DNA of 64,000 nucleotides from Aureococcus anophagefferens (lineage: Eukaryota > Sar > Pelagophyceae > Pelagomonadales > Pelagomonadaceae). The position numbers and the translations under genes were made by a program. The notes beneath the pieces were generated by a model. The model was given only the letters and a program-made list of their open reading frames with translations. It searched no databases and was not told the origin of the DNA. Position 1 is the stretch's first letter; the number at the start of each line of letters is the position of its first letter. The DNA lies in NCBI RefSeq assembly GCF_000186865.1, contig NW_008705578.1, positions 435,591 to 499,590 on the forward strand, written 5' to 3'. Shown piece after piece: positions 54,177 to 63,751 of the stretch.

Positions 54177-56213
54177 TTAATTCAGGCCCGCGCACGCGAC
54201 GCCGCCCCGGCAGGTCCACAGCTCCTCGAGCCTCGCCTTCTTCGCCGCGAGCTCGCCGGCCGAGAGCGCGCCGTACGCGTTCGTGAGCTGGTAGGGGTCG
54301 GCCTCCAAATCGTAGTACTCGCCCTCGGATTCCGGCGTGCCCGCCGCGCAGGCCTTGGGTTCGTGGAGCTCGTCGAAGCACTCGAAGACGCAGAAGACGG
54401 ACTCGTTGCCCGGCTGCAGGTGCCGCAGGCAGTGGTACGTGTTGTCCCACTCGTCGACGCGCCAGACGTCGCCGAGGCGCTCGAGCACGCCGGGCACGCC
54501 CGTGCCGAGCTTCCAGGGCTTGATGAACGCGCCGACCTTGTAGTAGTGGAGGTCCGCGTCGGCGTGGTACGTGTGCCGCTTGGCCAGCCGCGACCCCGCG
54601 ACGGCCGCCACGACGCCGCACGCGAGCCCCGCGACGCCGACGAAGGCCATCAGCGCGTCCGCGCGGCGCGCGGGCGGCGGCGTCCGCCGCGGCGCGGGCG
54701 GCCCGGTCTCCGCGTCCGACGGCGACCGCTGCACGCGCGCGGGCGACCCGTCGTCGCCGGCGTTGATGGGGCTCACGGCGGCGAGCGCCTCCTCCTCCGA
54801 CGTCTTGCGGCTCGACGCGTAGTCGCCGCCGCCGGGCGCGGTCCGCGCGCGGCGCCGGACCGTCGCGTGGACGGCCACGGCGGCCAGGGCGACGAGGAAC
54901 GACGCGCCGCAGGCGACGACGACGACGAGCAGCCCCGTGCGGAAGCGCGTGTTCGCGTCGTCGCCCTCGCCCCAGTACTCGAGGAGCAGGTCGTCGCGCC
55001 ACGGGCCGTCGCGGTCCGCGTCGCCGCGCGCCGCGGGCAGCAGGCTCCGGCCGTCGTAGGCGCCGGCCGGCGGCGGCGACCCGTGGATCATGTCGTAGAG
55101 CGTCGGCAGGAAGTCGACGAAGCCGCCGCCGTGGGCCAGGACGACGCCCTCCTGGACGCCGGGGCCCGCGAGGACGAAGGGCACGCGCGTGTCGAACTCG
55201 TAGAGCTGCCGCTTGTCGTAGTTGAGGCCGAACTCGCCGAGGTGCCAGCCGTGGTCCGACGTGAAGATCGTGTAGGTCGCGTCCGCCTCGCCGCGGGCCG
55301 CGACCGCGGCGAGCGTCGCGTTCATGGCCTCGTCGACGGACAGGAGGCACTCGAGGCGCCGCCGGTACGTGCGGTCGATGTAGTCGGCCACGGGCGCCTT
55401 CAGGAAGCCCTGGCGGCGCACGATGGCGTGCTTGTCGGCCGCGGACGCGTTCCAGGCCGGCGTCCGCGGCCGCGACGCGCCGTCGAGCGCGCCGAAGTGG
55501 TCGGGCCGCGGCTCGAAGGGGTCGTGGGACGCGGGCGTCCCCAGGATCGCGAACCAGGGCGCCGCCGCGGCCTCGAGGAAGTTCACGGCCCGGCGCGCGA
55601 CCAGGTCCGTCAGGTAGTCCTCCGGCGCCGTGCCGTGCGCCTCGCGGACGCCGTTGACGCTCAAATCGTAGTCGTAGAAGACGCTGTTCCCCAGGAGCCC
55701 GTGCCAGTCGTCCCAGCCCGGGGGCACGTGGCCCGGCCCGCCCATCTTGCCGTTGCCGTACATGTTGAGGTACTTGCCCGCGTAGAACGTCGCGTAGCCC
55801 GCGGCGGATGCGACCGTCGCGACGGAGTCGGTCTCGCCGTCGGCCTGCCAGCCCTTGGAGTTGCAGCCCGTGTCCACGGAGTTGGCCACGAAGCCCGTGT
55901 TGTGGCTGAACTTGCCCGTGAGGAACTGGGCCCGGCTCGGGCAGCAGACGGGCGTGTTCACGAAGACGCGGTCCCAGGTCGTGCCCGCGGCGCGCAGGCG
56001 GCTGTAGGTCGGCACGAGGTCCAGGGCCTCGAGGTCCTCCATGCTCGCGACGTCGACGTCGTCCGTGAGGAAGACGAGCACGTTGTGGCCCGTCGCCGCC
56101 GACGCGAGCCCGGGCAGGAGCGCGGCGAGAAGCATCCCGGGGCTGGCCAGGCCCGCCGCCGCCGACGCGAGCCCGGGCAGGAGCGCGGCGAGAAGCATCC
56201 CGGGGCTGGCCAT
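54177..56213 (-). CDS. Secreted sulfatase (GNS/SULF-like) with duplicated signal peptide and internal membrane hairpin
   Basis: 678 residues from ATG 56213 (an in-frame ATG at 56249 lies inside the MITE-like element). Two tandem signal-peptide units (ASPGMLLAALLPGLASA) precede HNVLVFLTDDVD, the metal site. The formylglycine motif is CCPSRAQFLTGK. Other sulfatase marks: TIFTSDHGWHLGEFG, DLEADPYQLTN at the end. Closest in wording to N-acetylglucosamine-6-sulfatases, which remove sulfate from glycans. Unusually, two hydrophobic segments (TGLLVVVVACGASFLVALAAVAV and LMAFVGVAGLACGVVAAVAG) with a ~100-residue Pro/Ser loop sit between LEYWGEG and NTYHCLR, where relatives have a short loop. Confidence 0.85.
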   Translation of the reverse strand: MASPGMLLAALLPGLASAAAGLASPGMLLAALLPGLASAATGHNVLVFLTDDVDVASMEDLEALDLVPTYSRLRAAGTTWDRVFVNTPVCCPSRAQFLTGKFSHNTGFVANSVDTGCNSKGWQADGETDSVATVASAAGYATFYAGKYLNMYGNGKMGGPGHVPPGWDDWHGLLGNSVFYDYDLSVNGVREAHGTAPEDYLTDLVARRAVNFLEAAAAPWFAILGTPASHDPFEPRPDHFGALDGASRPRTPAWNASAADKHAIVRRQGFLKAPVADYIDRTYRRRLECLLSVDEAMNATLAAVAARGEADATYTIFTSDHGWHLGEFGLNYDKRQLYEFDTRVPFVLAGPGVQEGVVLAHGGGFVDFLPTLYDMIHGSPPPAGAYDGRSLLPAARGDADRDGPWRDDLLLEYWGEGDDANTRFRTGLLVVVVACGASFLVALAAVAVHATVRRRARTAPGGGDYASSRKTSEEEALAAVSPINAGDDGSPARVQRSPSDAETGPPAPRRTPPPARRADALMAFVGVAGLACGVVAAVAGSRLAKRHTYHADADLHYYKVGAFIKPWKLGTGVPGVLERLGDVWRVDEWDNTYHCLRHLQPGNESVFCVFECFDELHEPKACAAGTPESEGEYYDLEADPYQLTNAYGALSAGELAAKKARLEELWTCRGGVACAGLN
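56101..56212 (-). repeat. 63-bp duplication of the sulfatase signal-peptide code
   Basis: The 49-bp word GACGCGAGCC...GGCTGGCCA occurs at 56101-56149 and again at 56164-56212, a 63-bp period (21 codons), apparently identical. Near-identity means a recent event. Confidence 0.9.
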
Positions 56214-56242
56214 TCCTTCGACGTCCAGAGGAGGATGTTGAA

Positions 56243-56352
56243 CTGGCATGAGTAGACCATGCCGCTCCCTTACCCCCGCCTGAGGTCATAGCTTCCCCCG
56301 GCGGGGCACAGGAGATCTCTCCGCAGGGGAGGGGCATGGTCTACTCAGGTCA
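56243..56352. mobile_element. MITE-like inverted-repeat element with 10-bp direct flanks
   Basis: 110 bp between direct copies of GGATGTTGAA (56233-56242 and 56353-56362). Inside are inverted ends: TGAGTAGACCATGCCGCTCCC on the left (from 56249) and the complement of TGAGTAGACCATGCCCCTCCC on the right (to 56347). The centre has no coding capacity. It lies in the 170-bp gap between the sulfatase start and the dehydrogenase stop. Confidence 0.75.
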
Positions 56353-56384
56353 GGATGTTGAAGTGGATACGAGCTTACCTTGAC

Positions 56385-57590
56385 TCACGTCCGCGGCCGC
56401 GGCAGCCCCGTCGCCGCGTCGACGTTCGTGAGCTCGCCGTTCGCGAAGCCGCGGATGTTGTCGGCGCACATGTCGACGACGCGCTGCCGCGCCTCGAGGC
56501 GCTGCCAGCCGATGTGGGGCGTCAGGATGATGTTGTCGAGGCCCCAGAGCGGCGACGCGTCCGGGAGCGGCGGCGGCGGCGCGGAGCCCTCGCCGAAGAC
56601 GTCGAGCGCGGCGCCGGCGATGGCCTTGGCCCGCAGCGCGTCGGCGAGCGCGGCCTGGTCGACGATGGCGCCGCGCGCCGTGTTGACGAGGTACGCCGAC
56701 GGCTTCATCTTGGCGATCTCTCGCGCGCCGACGAGGCCCGTCGTGCGCGCGTTCAGCGGGCAGTGCACGGACACGAAGTCCGATCGCGCCAGCAGGTCGT
56801 CGAGCGTGACGACGTCGACGCCGTCGTCGCGGGGCCCGAGCGGCGCCGCGGGGTCGCTCGCGACGACGCGGAGGCCCAGCGCCGTCGCCATCGCGGCGAC
56901 CCGGAGCCCGATGGTGCCCAGCCCGCCCACCAGGCCGATGGTCTTGCCCGTGAGCTCGAAGTGGGGCAGCGCGCCGAGGTGGCACTGCGCCATGTAGGAC
57001 CGGTCGCCCGTCGCGAGCGCGGCGCTCTGCGGCCACAGCGAGCACGCCAGGGCCATGACGAAGGTCACGGCCATGTGGGCCATGGCCTCCGTCGCGTAGG
57101 TCGGCACGTTGCAGACGGCGATGCCGCGCGCGTGGCAGGCCGCGAGGTCGACGTTGTTGTAGCCCGTGCCCGCCTCGCAGACGAGCCTGACCGAGGCCGG
57201 GAGCGCGGCGATCAGCGGCGCGTCGAGGGGCATCTCCTTGTTGAGGATGACGTCCGCGCCCGCGGCGCGCGCCGCGACCTCCTCCGGCGCGCTGATCTCG
57301 TAGCGTTCCACATCCGCGGCGGCCTCGAGCCTCGCGAGATCGATGCGGCCGTCGTAGTCGAGGCGCGCGGCGTTGAGCATGACGCAGCGCAGGCGCGGCG
57401 CGGTCGAGAGCGGTCGTGTTGTTGCGAAACATGCCCGCGCAGGAGCGACGGCGCGGCGCAAAAATGGAAGAGCCATGCTCGCAAAGCCAAGATCTAGCGG
57501 TCGTGTTGCGAAACATGCTGGCCGCGCCGACAGCGAGGACAGCGGTCGCCGCGCAGGAGCGACGGCGCGGCGCAAAAATGGAAGAGCCAT
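56385..57590 (-). CDS. D-isomer-specific 2-hydroxyacid dehydrogenase (hydroxypyruvate reductase-like)
   Basis: 401 residues from ATG 57590. The catalytic part starts near residue 70: EAGTGYNNVDL, the NAD-binding loop GLVGGLGTIG, Arg in LVNTARGAIVD, Glu in DVFGEG and His in LTPHIGW, the Arg-Glu-His set of the family. It reduces 2-keto acids such as hydroxypyruvate or glyoxylate with NAD(P)H, a photorespiratory step in algae; the exact substrate is inference. The first ~65 residues contain the sequence MALPFLRRAVAPAR twice, each with an ATG (57590 and 57476). Both copies are basic, Ala/Leu/Ser-rich targeting peptides. Two start sites could give two leaders. Confidence 0.85.
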   Translation of the reverse strand: MALPFLRRAVAPARRPLSSLSARPACFATRPLDLGFASMALPFLRRAVAPARACFATTRPLSTAPRLRCVMLNAARLDYDGRIDLARLEAAADVERYEISAPEEVAARAAGADVILNKEMPLDAPLIAALPASVRLVCEAGTGYNNVDLAACHARGIAVCNVPTYATEAMAHMAVTFVMALACSLWPQSAALATGDRSYMAQCHLGALPHFELTGKTIGLVGGLGTIGLRVAAMATALGLRVVASDPAAPLGPRDDGVDVVTLDDLLARSDFVSVHCPLNARTTGLVGAREIAKMKPSAYLVNTARGAIVDQAALADALRAKAIAGAALDVFGEGSAPPPPLPDASPLWGLDNIILTPHIGWQRLEARQRVVDMCADNIRGFANGELTNVDAATGLPRPRT

Positions 57591-57620
57591 GCTCCCAACT
57601 GGGCAAAGCCAAGATCTACT
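57421..57620 (-). repeat. Tandem duplication spanning the leader of the dehydrogenase
   Basis: Copy 1 begins at 57421 and copy 2 at 57505 with GTTGCGAAACATG. Copy 2 carries an extra ~30 bp. Both contain AAAAATGGAAGAGCCATGCTC and end near GCAAAGCCAAGATCTA. The second copy extends into the 5' leader. Confidence 0.85.
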
Positions 57621-57783: not shown

Positions 57784-60312
57784 ATGCTGCGCCGCGCCGC
57801 GCTCCTCGTCGCGCTCTGCGCCCGCGCCACCAAAAGCGACGAGGCCGTGCCGCGCGAGCTCCGGCCGAAGCACGTCGACGCCCGCGAGCTCGCGGGGAAC
57901 CCCTACTACGTCGAGGACCCCGTCTTCACGAACCGGACGACGTTCCTGGTCATGAACACCTACATCTGGAACCTGTGCTCGAAGGAGCGGAACCCGAATC
58001 CCGAGGAGTTCTGCTACGGCGCGTACGACCTCTACACGGAGACGCTCAAGTACGACCACCTCGTCGTCATTCCCGACGTCGGCAGCGACATCGCCGCCTT
58101 CACCTTCGGCATCCCCGCCATGTTCGCGGCGGACCCGGAGTCCGTCACGGTCATGTGGCTCATGATCTACACGCCGGTCATGTTCCTGCTGACGCCGCTG
58201 CTGCAGGCGGGCGTCGCGACGATCCTGATCTCGGGCAGCGACCACGCGCACCCGACGGTGGCGACCTTCGGGGCCCACCCCGCGTCGTCGGCCTACGGGC
58301 TCGCGGAGCCCTGGTGGCCCGCCAAGTACGGCGACTACCCGCGGCTCTACAAGCTCGTGCCCGACGACTACCAGGGCGCGTACGAGGCCGCGCGCGAGTT
58401 CTGCCGGCTGACGAACGCCGAGGACCGCATCCACGAGATCATGCTCATCGCCATCGACCAGCTGCGGCGCGACGGCTTCCAGGACGGCGTCGCCGCGCTC
58501 TGCGGCGACCGCGGCCACGTCGTCGTCGCGGAGTTCTCCGACTTCGACGCGCTCACGGCGTACCAGGGCACCTACGACGCCATGGCGTCCTACTTCACGG
58601 CCTACCCGGGCATCTCCATCGTCCTGACGGGCGACGTGAACAACGTGCGGGCCGTCTACGACGCCGCGGCGGACTACCGGTCCGGCGGCAACGCGGAGAT
58701 CATCGTCGCGGCGTCGTCGTACATGAAGGGCCAGTACGACTACGACGAGTTCCCCAACATCTACGCCGTGACGAACGCCCAGGTCGTCGACGAGGACCGG
58801 GGCGTCCACTTCACGACGCAGCGGCTCCTGGACATCGTCGACGCGGGCGAGGCCGTCGAGCTCGCGCTCGAGAAGCGCGTGCTCACGACGGCGATCCAGA
58901 TCGAGGTCTTCGACATGGGCGCGTTCATCGTGCGCCAGCTCCTGCCGGTGTACGCCAAGGAGACGGCGCCGAGCTCGCCCGTGGACGTGCGCATCAACCT
59001 GCGGCGCGTCCGCATCACGGAGGTGACGCCGACGGACGCGTCGTTCTTCGAGATCACGGGCATCGTCGAGGTCGAGTGGGACGAGCCGCGCCTCGCCTGG
59101 GACGACTACCTCTTCAACGAGACGTTGTCCTACCCGCGGGCGTCCATCTGGACGCCGGCGATCTACATCGACAACAACTACTTCACGCGGGATTTGACGG
59201 ACCTGCCGGTCGAGGTGTCGAGCAGCGGCCGCGCGCGCATGAAGTCGCAGATCCGGACGCAGCTCCTCTGCGACTCGGACCTCATCATGCTGCCCTTCGA
59301 CGTGCACAAGTGCGAGATCACCTTCGAGAGCACGCGCCAGCGCGTCTTCGAGGCCATGGCGCACGGCGACTTCCTCGTCGCCGACGTCGACGACAACTAC
59401 GAGATCGAGTACCACGCGACGACGACGGAGGTCGAGGGCGGCTTCATGAACGAGCGCCACTCCGTCGTGCGCTTCAAGTTCGTCTTCTCGCACCGGCCCT
59501 TCGGCCACTACATCCGCCTCATCTTCCCCGCGGCGCTCCTGAACATGGTCGGCTTCCTCGCGTTCTGGGTCGACGGCGCGACGGACTCGCTGGAGCTGGG
59601 CATCACGACGCTCCTGTGCACGCTGGCCCTGCGCCAGACCATCGAGTTCCCGGACACGACGTACCCGACGTGGCTCGAGGGCTTCATGTTCATCAACATC
59701 CTCTTCCAGTTCATCTGCGTCGTCCTCAGCGTGTCCGAGTACTCCGAGGGCCGCCAGGACCTGCTCCAGGAGTACATCGTCAAGCGCATGACGGGCTACT
59801 CGAAGCTCGCGAACCAGCTCGGCGGGGCGGTGACGCCGACGTTCATGCGGACGCCGCGGACGCCCGGGCGGAGGACGCCGCGGATGACGCCGCGCGACCA
59901 GAACGGCAACGGCAAGGTCCACGCCCTCGGCGGCGCGCCGCCGGGGCCGGACATCCCCGAGCTGCCCTCCGTCGACGCGCACGCGGCGAAGCGGACGCCG
60001 CGCCAGGACGCGTACGCGCCCCACGACGCCGGCGCGGGCCACGGCCGCGGCCAGGGCCACGGCCACGGCGCGGGCCACCACGACCACGGGCCCAACGGCG
60101 GCAAGCGCCGCGACTCGCTCATGGGCAAGATCAACCCCTTCGCCAGCCTCCAGCGCCTCAGCAACCCGAAGAAGTACGGCGAGGAGACGACGCCCGCGGC
60201 GGACCTCATCGGCCGCTGGATCGTCTGCCCGATCTACTTCGTCGTCATGATGGTCTACTGCGTCGACCGCGGCAGCGGCGTCAAGCCCTGGTTCCCCGAG
60301 CGGAGCGAGTAG
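57784..60312 (+). CDS. Cys-loop pentameric ligand-gated ion channel fused to a periplasmic-binding-protein-like domain
   Basis: 842 residues from ATG 57784. Signal peptide (LRRAALLVALCARAT), then a type-1 periplasmic-binding-like domain (about 60-390: LVVIPDVGSDIAAF, MLIAIDQLRRDGFQDG, ISIVLTGDVNNVRAVYDAA). The pLGIC extracellular domain follows (about 405-570), with a true Cys-loop: C496 and C510, 13 residues between, containing LPFDVHKC. M1 is near 576-596, M2 near 603-622 (LELGITTLLCTLALRQTIEF), M3 near 630-653, M4 near 811-827. The M3-M4 loop (~150 residues) has a His/Gly-rich stretch (HGRGQGHGHGAGHHDHG) that may bind metal. M2 lacks the Pro-Ala/Gly pattern of anion channels; ion choice is open. 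Confidence 0.9.
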   Translation: MLRRAALLVALCARATKSDEAVPRELRPKHVDARELAGNPYYVEDPVFTNRTTFLVMNTYIWNLCSKERNPNPEEFCYGAYDLYTETLKYDHLVVIPDVGSDIAAFTFGIPAMFAADPESVTVMWLMIYTPVMFLLTPLLQAGVATILISGSDHAHPTVATFGAHPASSAYGLAEPWWPAKYGDYPRLYKLVPDDYQGAYEAAREFCRLTNAEDRIHEIMLIAIDQLRRDGFQDGVAALCGDRGHVVVAEFSDFDALTAYQGTYDAMASYFTAYPGISIVLTGDVNNVRAVYDAAADYRSGGNAEIIVAASSYMKGQYDYDEFPNIYAVTNAQVVDEDRGVHFTTQRLLDIVDAGEAVELALEKRVLTTAIQIEVFDMGAFIVRQLLPVYAKETAPSSPVDVRINLRRVRITEVTPTDASFFEITGIVEVEWDEPRLAWDDYLFNETLSYPRASIWTPAIYIDNNYFTRDLTDLPVEVSSSGRARMKSQIRTQLLCDSDLIMLPFDVHKCEITFESTRQRVFEAMAHGDFLVADVDDNYEIEYHATTTEVEGGFMNERHSVVRFKFVFSHRPFGHYIRLIFPAALLNMVGFLAFWVDGATDSLELGITTLLCTLALRQTIEFPDTTYPTWLEGFMFINILFQFICVVLSVSEYSEGRQDLLQEYIVKRMTGYSKLANQLGGAVTPTFMRTPRTPGRRTPRMTPRDQNGNGKVHALGGAPPGPDIPELPSVDAHAAKRTPRQDAYAPHDAGAGHGRGQGHGHGAGHHDHGPNGGKRRDSLMGKINPFASLQRLSNPKKYGEETTPAADLIGRWIVCPIYFVVMMVYCVDRGSGVKPWFPERSE

Positions 60313-62683: not shown

Positions 62684-63751
62684 TCAGCACAGGTCCATGG
62701 CGTCCTTCCGCGGCGGCGGGTAGCGGCTCCGGGAGACGATGTCCGTGATGGCCTCGACGGCCTGGGCGCGCTGGTCCGGCGCCCCGGCGATGAGGATGCC
62801 GGCGATGTCGGACGACCGGTCGCCGCCGTCGTCGACGCGGACGCGCGCGCCGGAGTTGCGCTCGATGCCCTGGATCGTCGCGCCGCGCTTCCCGATGACG
62901 CGGCCCACGGCCTGCCGCGGCACGACCAGGCGCTCCGCGTCGTCGCCGACGGGCGTCGTCAGCGCCCCGGGCGCCGCGGCGGCCGCGACCTCGGACACGA
63001 GCGCGAGGCACGTCCCGTCGCGCGCCCCGAAGAGCGCGAGCGCCTGCGCGGTCCGCGGGCCGGGCGCGACGTCCGCCGTCGGCGCCGCCGGCGCGCGCGT
63101 CCGCGGCGGCGGCGCGGCCGCGGCGGCCGCCGGCGGCGCGCGCGCGCGCGCGCGCGTCGCGAGCGCGAAGTCCGGCGCGGTTCCGTCGTGGAACGCGCGC
63201 ATGCGGAGGAGCGCGTCCGGGTCCGGCGCGAAGGACGGGTCGAACATGAAGGGCACGCGGTGGTAGTCGAGCCAGCGGCCGTCGTAGCCCCGGTCGCGGA
63301 CGTGGTCCAGGAAGCGGTCGTTGGACACGACGAACGACCCGTGGACGTCCGCGTGCTGAATCAAAAAGTGGTCGTCGCGGCCGCCCGGCGTCGCGAAGAG
63401 CAGCGACGCCCGCTGCAGCTCGGCGACCTCGGGGTGGTCGTCGATCCAGCCCCGCGGGGCGAAGATCTTGAAGCCCACGCCCGCGGTCGCCCAGTACTCG
63501 ACGGCGAGCTGGAGGCCCCGGAGCTCCGCGGCGCGGATCGCCGACGCGTCCGTCTCGTAGGACGGCACGTTGCCCAGCGCCACGTTCATGCCGTCGATGA
63601 CGACGTGGACGCCGGGCGGGGACGCCGCCGCCCGCTCGACCTCCATGGACCGCAGCACGTGGTCCCGCGTCTCTTCGAAGGTCGGCACGCTCATGTGGCT
63701 CGCGTCGCGGTACGTCGGCTCGGCGACGGCCGTCGACGCGCCGGCGCCCAT
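62684..63751 (-). CDS. NYN (Zc3h12a-like) ribonuclease with C-terminal KH domain, predicted N-myristoylated
   Basis: 355 residues from ATG 63751. The start MGAGAST has Gly2 and Ser6, fitting the N-myristoylation rule. Residues ~45-190 are a PIN-like NYN nuclease: VVIDGMNVALG, a long helical part, DDHFLIQHAD, SFVVSNDRFLDH with catalytic acidic residues, and RVPFMFD, as in MCPIP1/Regnase and N4BP1/KHNYN. An Ala/Pro linker follows, then a KH domain (RLVVPRQAVGRVIGKRGATIQGIERNSGARVRV) with a GKRG loop for single-stranded RNA. In animal KHNYN the KH-like part precedes NYN; here the order is reversed. Probably an RNA-degrading enzyme at a membrane. Confidence 0.85.
   Translation of the reverse strand: MGAGASTAVAEPTYRDASHMSVPTFEETRDHVLRSMEVERAAASPPGVHVVIDGMNVALGNVPSYETDASAIRAAELRGLQLAVEYWATAGVGFKIFAPRGWIDDHPEVAELQRASLLFATPGGRDDHFLIQHADVHGSFVVSNDRFLDHVRDRGYDGRWLDYHRVPFMFDPSFAPDPDALLRMRAFHDGTAPDFALATRARARAPPAAAAAAPPPRTRAPAAPTADVAPGPRTAQALALFGARDGTCLALVSEVAAAAAPGALTTPVGDDAERLVVPRQAVGRVIGKRGATIQGIERNSGARVRVDDGGDRSSDIAGILIAGAPDQRAQAVEAITDIVSRSRYPPPRKDAMDLC

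Follow-up and report, generated by a model that had tools for sequence, protein, structure and literature searches.

Can a eukaryotic Cys-loop receptor carry, in a single polypeptide, a head of the bacterial periplasmic-binding-protein (PBP) type? This question is raised by a gene at positions 57784-60312 (+) of a 64,000-nucleotide stretch of the Aureococcus anophagefferens genome (hereafter the window), in which a first-pass annotation read a type-1 PBP (PBP-I)-like domain joined to a pentameric ligand-gated ion channel (pLGIC). Our computational analysis supports this architecture: a Pfam match to the pLGIC ligand-binding domain (LBD), a model of the head and the paralogues of the protein together point to a Cys-loop channel with a PBP-I-like head in one polypeptide, and to at least five loci of this kind in the genome.

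Reading frame and channel part

The gene lies on contig C18 of a 49-Mb genome of 86 contigs, and runs from an ATG start to a TAG stop through 842 open codons, uninterrupted from head to channel as the annotation had stated. The frame is not a product of chance, since an NCBI record of Aureococcus anophagefferens (P0002) is 97% identical to the window protein (P0001) over its full length, a protein in ENA encoded on a 2973-base contig (P0003) matches it in full length at 77% identity, and a 33% identical paralogue on a different contig spans residues 75-834. P0002 lacks 26 residues of the head; the frame of the window reads through them without a stop, and P0003 and P0004 have corresponding residues, so the gap in the public model looks like a wrongly predicted intron, and likely is one.

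Residues 382-520 match the Neur_chan_LBD family of Pfam (PF02931; E 1.9e-18, 67.1 bits, cut-off 26), and glycine receptors are the best sequence matches in the PDB, aligning over residues 398-647 (best E 1.2e-13), with GLIC next. The Cys-loop, CDSDLIMLPFDVHKC (residues 496-510), has exactly the predicted spacing, with 13 residues between the cysteines around a P-F-D motif. The identities of C496, C510, D601, E604 and L611 were confirmed at those positions, and D601 is invariant in alignments A2 (7 rows) and A6 (9 rows). That this spacing is rare among prokaryotic relatives was also borne out: a C-x13-C pair occurs in 0 of 34 prokaryotic pLGIC loci (GTDB), which were picked with GLIC/ELIC-like patterns. 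Four membrane segments had been proposed. Hydrophobic 19-mers scoring above 1.4 lie at residues 579 (M1), 633 (M3) and 809 (M4), and M2 was positioned from the glycine-receptor alignment; the transmembrane family of Pfam (PF02932) gave a match below threshold (10.6 bits, cut-off 28.1), so that this part of the proposal stands on hydrophobicity and alignment. Further 19-mers above 1.4 lie at 93 and 132, within the head.

The loop between M3 and M4 holds a His-rich stretch, which is absent from the paralogue on contig C2. Its suggested role as a metal switch had composition as its sole basis; nothing further was found in its favour, and the suggestion was rejected.

The N-terminal head and its family

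Structure prediction, proposed earlier as a check, yielded a PBP-I-like head at moderate confidence. The AlphaFold2 model of residues 41-395 has a predicted local distance difference test score (pLDDT) of 53.8 and a predicted template-modelling score of 0.50. Its predicted secondary structure alternates between strands and helices, in models of low to moderate confidence, and the predicted fold is two-lobed alpha/beta, as in PBP type I. Foldseek and VIA both matched the model to PBP-I structures; the closest Foldseek folds are sugar-type PBPs, and the VIA matches include amino-acid-type PBPs as well. By profile comparison the window head matches the paralogue heads (E 7.7e-4 over 278 columns), and these in turn match Peripla_BP_4 in three of three cases (best E 7.3e-6, 26.1 bits, cut-off 35.1). 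The sequence statistics of the window protein alone show no PBP, since its N-terminal part, scanned by itself, had no Pfam match up to E 10, and among the PDB matches to a four-sequence head profile PBPs came no better than E 0.53-0.72, a range in which unrelated proteins scored as well. The PBP identity of the window head, which rests on the predicted fold and the paralogues, is nevertheless supported.

Several results weigh against it. In the head model 126 of 355 residues fall below pLDDT 50, the remaining four models reached 36-43, and the Foldseek superpositions are loose (TM-scores 0.28-0.48, root-mean-square deviation 8-12 A). Because the alignment behind the model held paralogues with recognisable PBP similarity, the fold result depends on the paralogue link; hhalign gave this link a probability of only 9% and 25%, and single-sequence phmmer found none between the window head and that of L010. 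The curated Peripla_BP_4 cut-off was reached by no protein scanned, whole-protein scans of the C17 (L010) and C2 (L020) proteins gave no PBP match, and of eight database relatives of the C17 channel, several of them fragments, P0010 (E 0.12), P0011 (2.8e-4), P0013 (4.6e-4) and P0014 (0.14) had a PBP match and P0012, P0015, P0016 and P0017 had none. A full-length AlphaFold2 model built from seven close relatives alone failed, at pLDDT 30; Foldseek matched this model to pLGICs at TM-scores of 0.20 or less, and it was not used as fold evidence. Finally, the window head has TGD and AAS in place of the motifs AND and GFD.

These two motifs, whose Asn-Asp and Gly-Phe-Asp positions we take to be ligand contacts in PBPs, are kept in the heads of L010, L012 and L013, where they align with ribose-binding protein, which makes sugar sensing by the heads of this second subfamily plausible. 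Owing to their loss, the window head may bind something else or nothing. Given this replacement, and the split between sugar-type Foldseek folds and VIA matches that extend to amino-acid-type PBPs, gating by a nutrient or amino acid, as suggested by the annotation, is no more than a possibility.

The annotation had described a single protein. The architecture holds, but the protein is not alone: at least five loci in the genome encode PBP-headed channels, in two subfamilies. Heads were searched by tblastn (E <= 1e-3) with four head queries and a 75-residue fragment of the L012 head, across the window and 20 stretches of 9 kb each; more diverged or distant heads would escape. L026 was partly masked, and the count takes in all but two of the 26 places with an LBD match, the exceptions being one on C41 and one where C11 starts. 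Protein database searches considered about 8000 candidates each, those sharing most words with the query, and the matches with a named organism were from Aureococcus. Viral contigs searched with the C17 protein gave no confirmed match, and a plasmid collection gave no match to the C17 protein, the window protein or a bacterial long-headed channel.

Proposed mechanism, origin and rival explanations

All eight PBP-bearing rows of our channel alignment have Asp at -1'. Among the twelve headless algal rows, PAR or PGR stands there in seven, SAR in L017 and a Glu at -1' in L016, while the site could not be read in the remaining three. In pLGICs an Asp at -1' favours cations, and as the PBP channels have it instead of the Pro-Ala-Arg of anion channels, their pore is probably cation-selective. 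The glycine-receptor loop B (FGYT) lies opposite a gap in the window protein and the loop-C aromatic is unmatched, so the protein probably does not use the usual agonist pocket in the way that animal receptors do; with this canonical pocket looking degenerate, the head is the likelier sensor. We favour, with fair but not full confidence, a pentameric Cys-loop channel subunit of the cell surface (or an endomembrane) that senses a solute with a PBP-I Venus-flytrap head and is probably cation-selective. A small solute would settle between the two lobes and close the head; the linker could relay this motion to the beta-sandwich of the extracellular domain, which would open the pore or set its sensitivity. 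In this way a dissolved chemical cue might directly depolarise the membrane of the alga or give rise to a cation signal, perhaps of calcium.

A phylogeny of the channel part, also suggested by the first-pass annotation, places the window channel with eukaryotic (algal and animal) rows and not with prokaryotes. The tree has 40 rows and includes no PBP-bearing prokaryotic channel. The eight PBP-bearing rows form one side of a branch (support 98/89); together with other algal rows and the glycine receptor they make up 19 rows set apart from the prokaryotes (99/98). L027 and L028, algal rows without the cysteine pair, group with the prokaryotes, and L016 and L018, long and headless algal rows, are neighbours of the PBP rows at a fork that is open (89/77). 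When six rows were removed (L016, L017, L018, L027, L028 and L062), the eight PBP rows stayed together (100/99). In this reduced tree, forcing the window subfamily to group with 18 prokaryotes was rejected (p-AU 0.005) in a topology test chosen after the first tree. This tree has no root, and the program flagged long branches that come together at the second subfamily, so that its depth is unsure. From these sequence comparisons, the fusion was probably made or fixed within eukaryotes, in a lineage that had yet to divide into the two subfamilies.

The alternative that a whole bacterial fusion was gained by horizontal transfer could draw on the PBP-I fusions described for alphaproteobacteria (PMC549065), and the case against it is limited by trees that hold no PBP-bearing prokaryotic channel. 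The window channel nevertheless has the Cys-loop that all 34 prokaryotic loci lack, and the placement of the PBP channels with algal and animal rows, along with the rejected prokaryotic grouping, makes such a transfer improbable. All 13 prokaryotic loci (of the 34) whose channel is preceded by more than 300 residues were without a PBP in Pfam at E <= 0.1, some of these heads giving weak traces of PPC; among 385 and 398 sampled genomes, 5 and 7 had an LBD match, and none an open frame longer than 570 aa. A far more remote explanation, which we considered and rejected, is that a gene model or assembly error merged two adjacent genes into one frame. Long spurious frames are common in a GC-rich genome such as this, but P0002, P0003 and P0004 likewise combine the head with the channel, a single open frame holds both in the C2 (L020) and C17 (L010) genes, and the L013 frame contains the head plus the extracellular domain. 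A bacterial contaminant was likewise rejected, the locus lying among other genes on an 800-kb contig, with its paralogues on three other contigs.

A more serious contender, although we regard it as rather unlikely, concerns the role of the head, which may no longer be a sensor and may instead serve assembly, trafficking, or wall contact or adhesion, gating being left to the channel's own extracellular domain or to protons. It would account for the loss in the window head of the binding motifs of the paralogues, and both pore and extracellular domain are present. It sits less well with the conservation of the head, which is 94% identical in P0003 and 63% in P0004 and whose most conserved stretches, AREFCR.T and CGDRGH, occur in the C2 paralogue too, or with the degenerate look of the canonical pocket. 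The solute-sensing channel stays our preferred reading. In its fullest form, namely that a family of Cys-loop cation channels gated by sugars or other solutes, with the PBP-I head as primary sensor, arose in stramenopile algae separately from the bacterial fusions, it is a tentative proposal that we put at short of an even chance.

Features of the locus and comparison with known systems

Table 1. Features of the channel gene in the window
Feature	Position	Strand	Basis
PBP-pLGIC fusion protein, 842 aa, stop-free	57784..60312	+	97% identical to NCBI model P0002, 77% to ENA protein P0003
Hydrophobic N-terminal segment MLRRAALLVALCARATKSD, probable secretion signal	57784..57840	+	Sequence reading; start common to P0002, P0003, P0009
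PBP-I-like domain (predicted), residues 41-395	57904..58968	+	AlphaFold2 model, Foldseek and VIA matches, profile comparison with the heads of paralogues
pLGIC extracellular (ligand-binding) domain, residues 396-575	58969..59508	+	PF02931, E 1.9e-18; glycine receptor alpha-2, E 1.2e-13
Cys-loop C496-x13-C510	59269..59313	+	Pair present in every row of alignments A2 (7 rows) and A6 (9 rows)
M1	59512..59574	+	Hydrophobic peak and glycine receptor alignment
M2, pore helix; D601 = -1', E604 = 2', L611 = 9'	59578..59646	+	Glycine receptor alignment
M3	59668..59739	+	Hydrophobic peak
M3-M4 loop, predicted cytoplasmic, low complexity	59740..60195	+	Placement between M3 and M4
His-rich stretch within M3-M4 loop	60022..60087	+	Sequence; kept in P0003, P0004, P0007
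M4	60196..60273	+	Hydrophobic peak from residue 809

The neighbouring genes in the window have no visible link to the channel. At 54180-57590 (-) and 62687-63751 (-) they comprise a 2-hydroxyacid dehydrogenase (E 6.7e-49), a sulfatase (E 1e-36) and a protein with KH and NYN-ribonuclease domains. A 50-base direct repeat, 98% identical (57435-57484 and 57549-57598), lies just upstream of the channel gene, where the adjacent minus-strand frame contains it in its 5' portion.

Elsewhere in the genome, the M3-M4 loop of other pLGICs contains segments resembling EF-hands, a sign that calcium may control those channels from inside; L009:4982-6751 (contig C11), the one locus covered by the scan, matches EF-hand_1 at E 1.3e-5, just below the curated cut-off, and L016, L019, L023 and L025 were recognised by eye. 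NCBI names the second subfamily (P0010, P0016) 'GABA-A receptor', yet the rows of this subfamily in our channel alignment have Asp-Arg before M2 and not the anion-type PAR. A stretch of about 60 codons with 52-79% identity recurs after the channel in L010 and in L009, L013, L014, L021, L022, L023 and L040, some with multiple copies, and is probably a dispersed repeat. Three more Peripla_BP_6 matches, two above cut-off, lie at C4:1400116-1400787, C33:203290-204165 and C13:613020-613928.

Extra N-terminal domains have been described for prokaryotic pLGICs and are treated in structural work as a prokaryotic speciality, the jelly-roll head of DeCLIC being the sole one partly characterised (PMC12664993); according to PMC9897478, they are observed in no eukaryotic homologue. 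Against this statement stand at least five loci of a eukaryotic Cys-loop family, for which an architecture of the bacterial type is well supported; the ligand and mechanism put forward for it are proposals. Jaiteh et al. (2016; PMC4795631) treated protist Cys-loop receptors and listed Aureococcus among the holders of all three pLGIC types; the terms 'periplasmic' and 'N-terminal domain' are both absent from its text, in which the head does not seem to be described. Diatoms have Cys-less pLGICs and the brown algae analysed have none (PMC11085791). Among the matches listed in open-licence literature, no report of a eukaryotic PBP-pLGIC was found.

If our reading is true, a flytrap sensor and a pentameric pore, two designs of neurotransmitter receptors, are united in one protein, and a photosynthetic plankton cell reads its chemical surroundings electrically. 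Such channels would offer a test bed for the control of pLGICs by accessory heads and make pLGIC roles in unicellular algae testable; in this bloom-forming (brown-tide) alga, the channel would be a candidate sensor for dissolved nutrients.

The closest precedent had been named correctly by the first-pass annotation: Tasneem et al. (PMC549065) described PBP-I fusions in bacterial pLGICs (Magnetospirillum, Bradyrhizobium) and predicted a role in chemoreception. These share with the window protein the order of PBP-I domain, extracellular beta-domain and four transmembrane helices, its head and helices being predicted ones. Compared by description only, the window protein differs in being eukaryotic, in its Cys-loop cysteines, its long M3-M4 loop and its multi-gene family, and its channel part is not of the prokaryotic kind, having a Cys-loop and grouping with eukaryotic rows (in a tree without the bacterial fusions). 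DeCLIC and its kin are likewise pLGICs with a large extra N-terminal domain (PMC9897478, PMC12664993), but the DeCLIC head consists of two beta jelly-roll lobes, whereas the window head is predicted to be alpha/beta PBP-I. Ionotropic and metabotropic glutamate receptors resemble the window protein in their PBP-I-type extracellular head, and metabotropic heads are among its VIA matches. The pore or transmembrane module of these receptors differs from that of pLGICs. Animal glycine receptors, the best PDB sequence match, share the Cys-loop and, to our knowledge, carry no PBP head; they have the anion-type PAR before M2, where the window protein has Asp at -1'.
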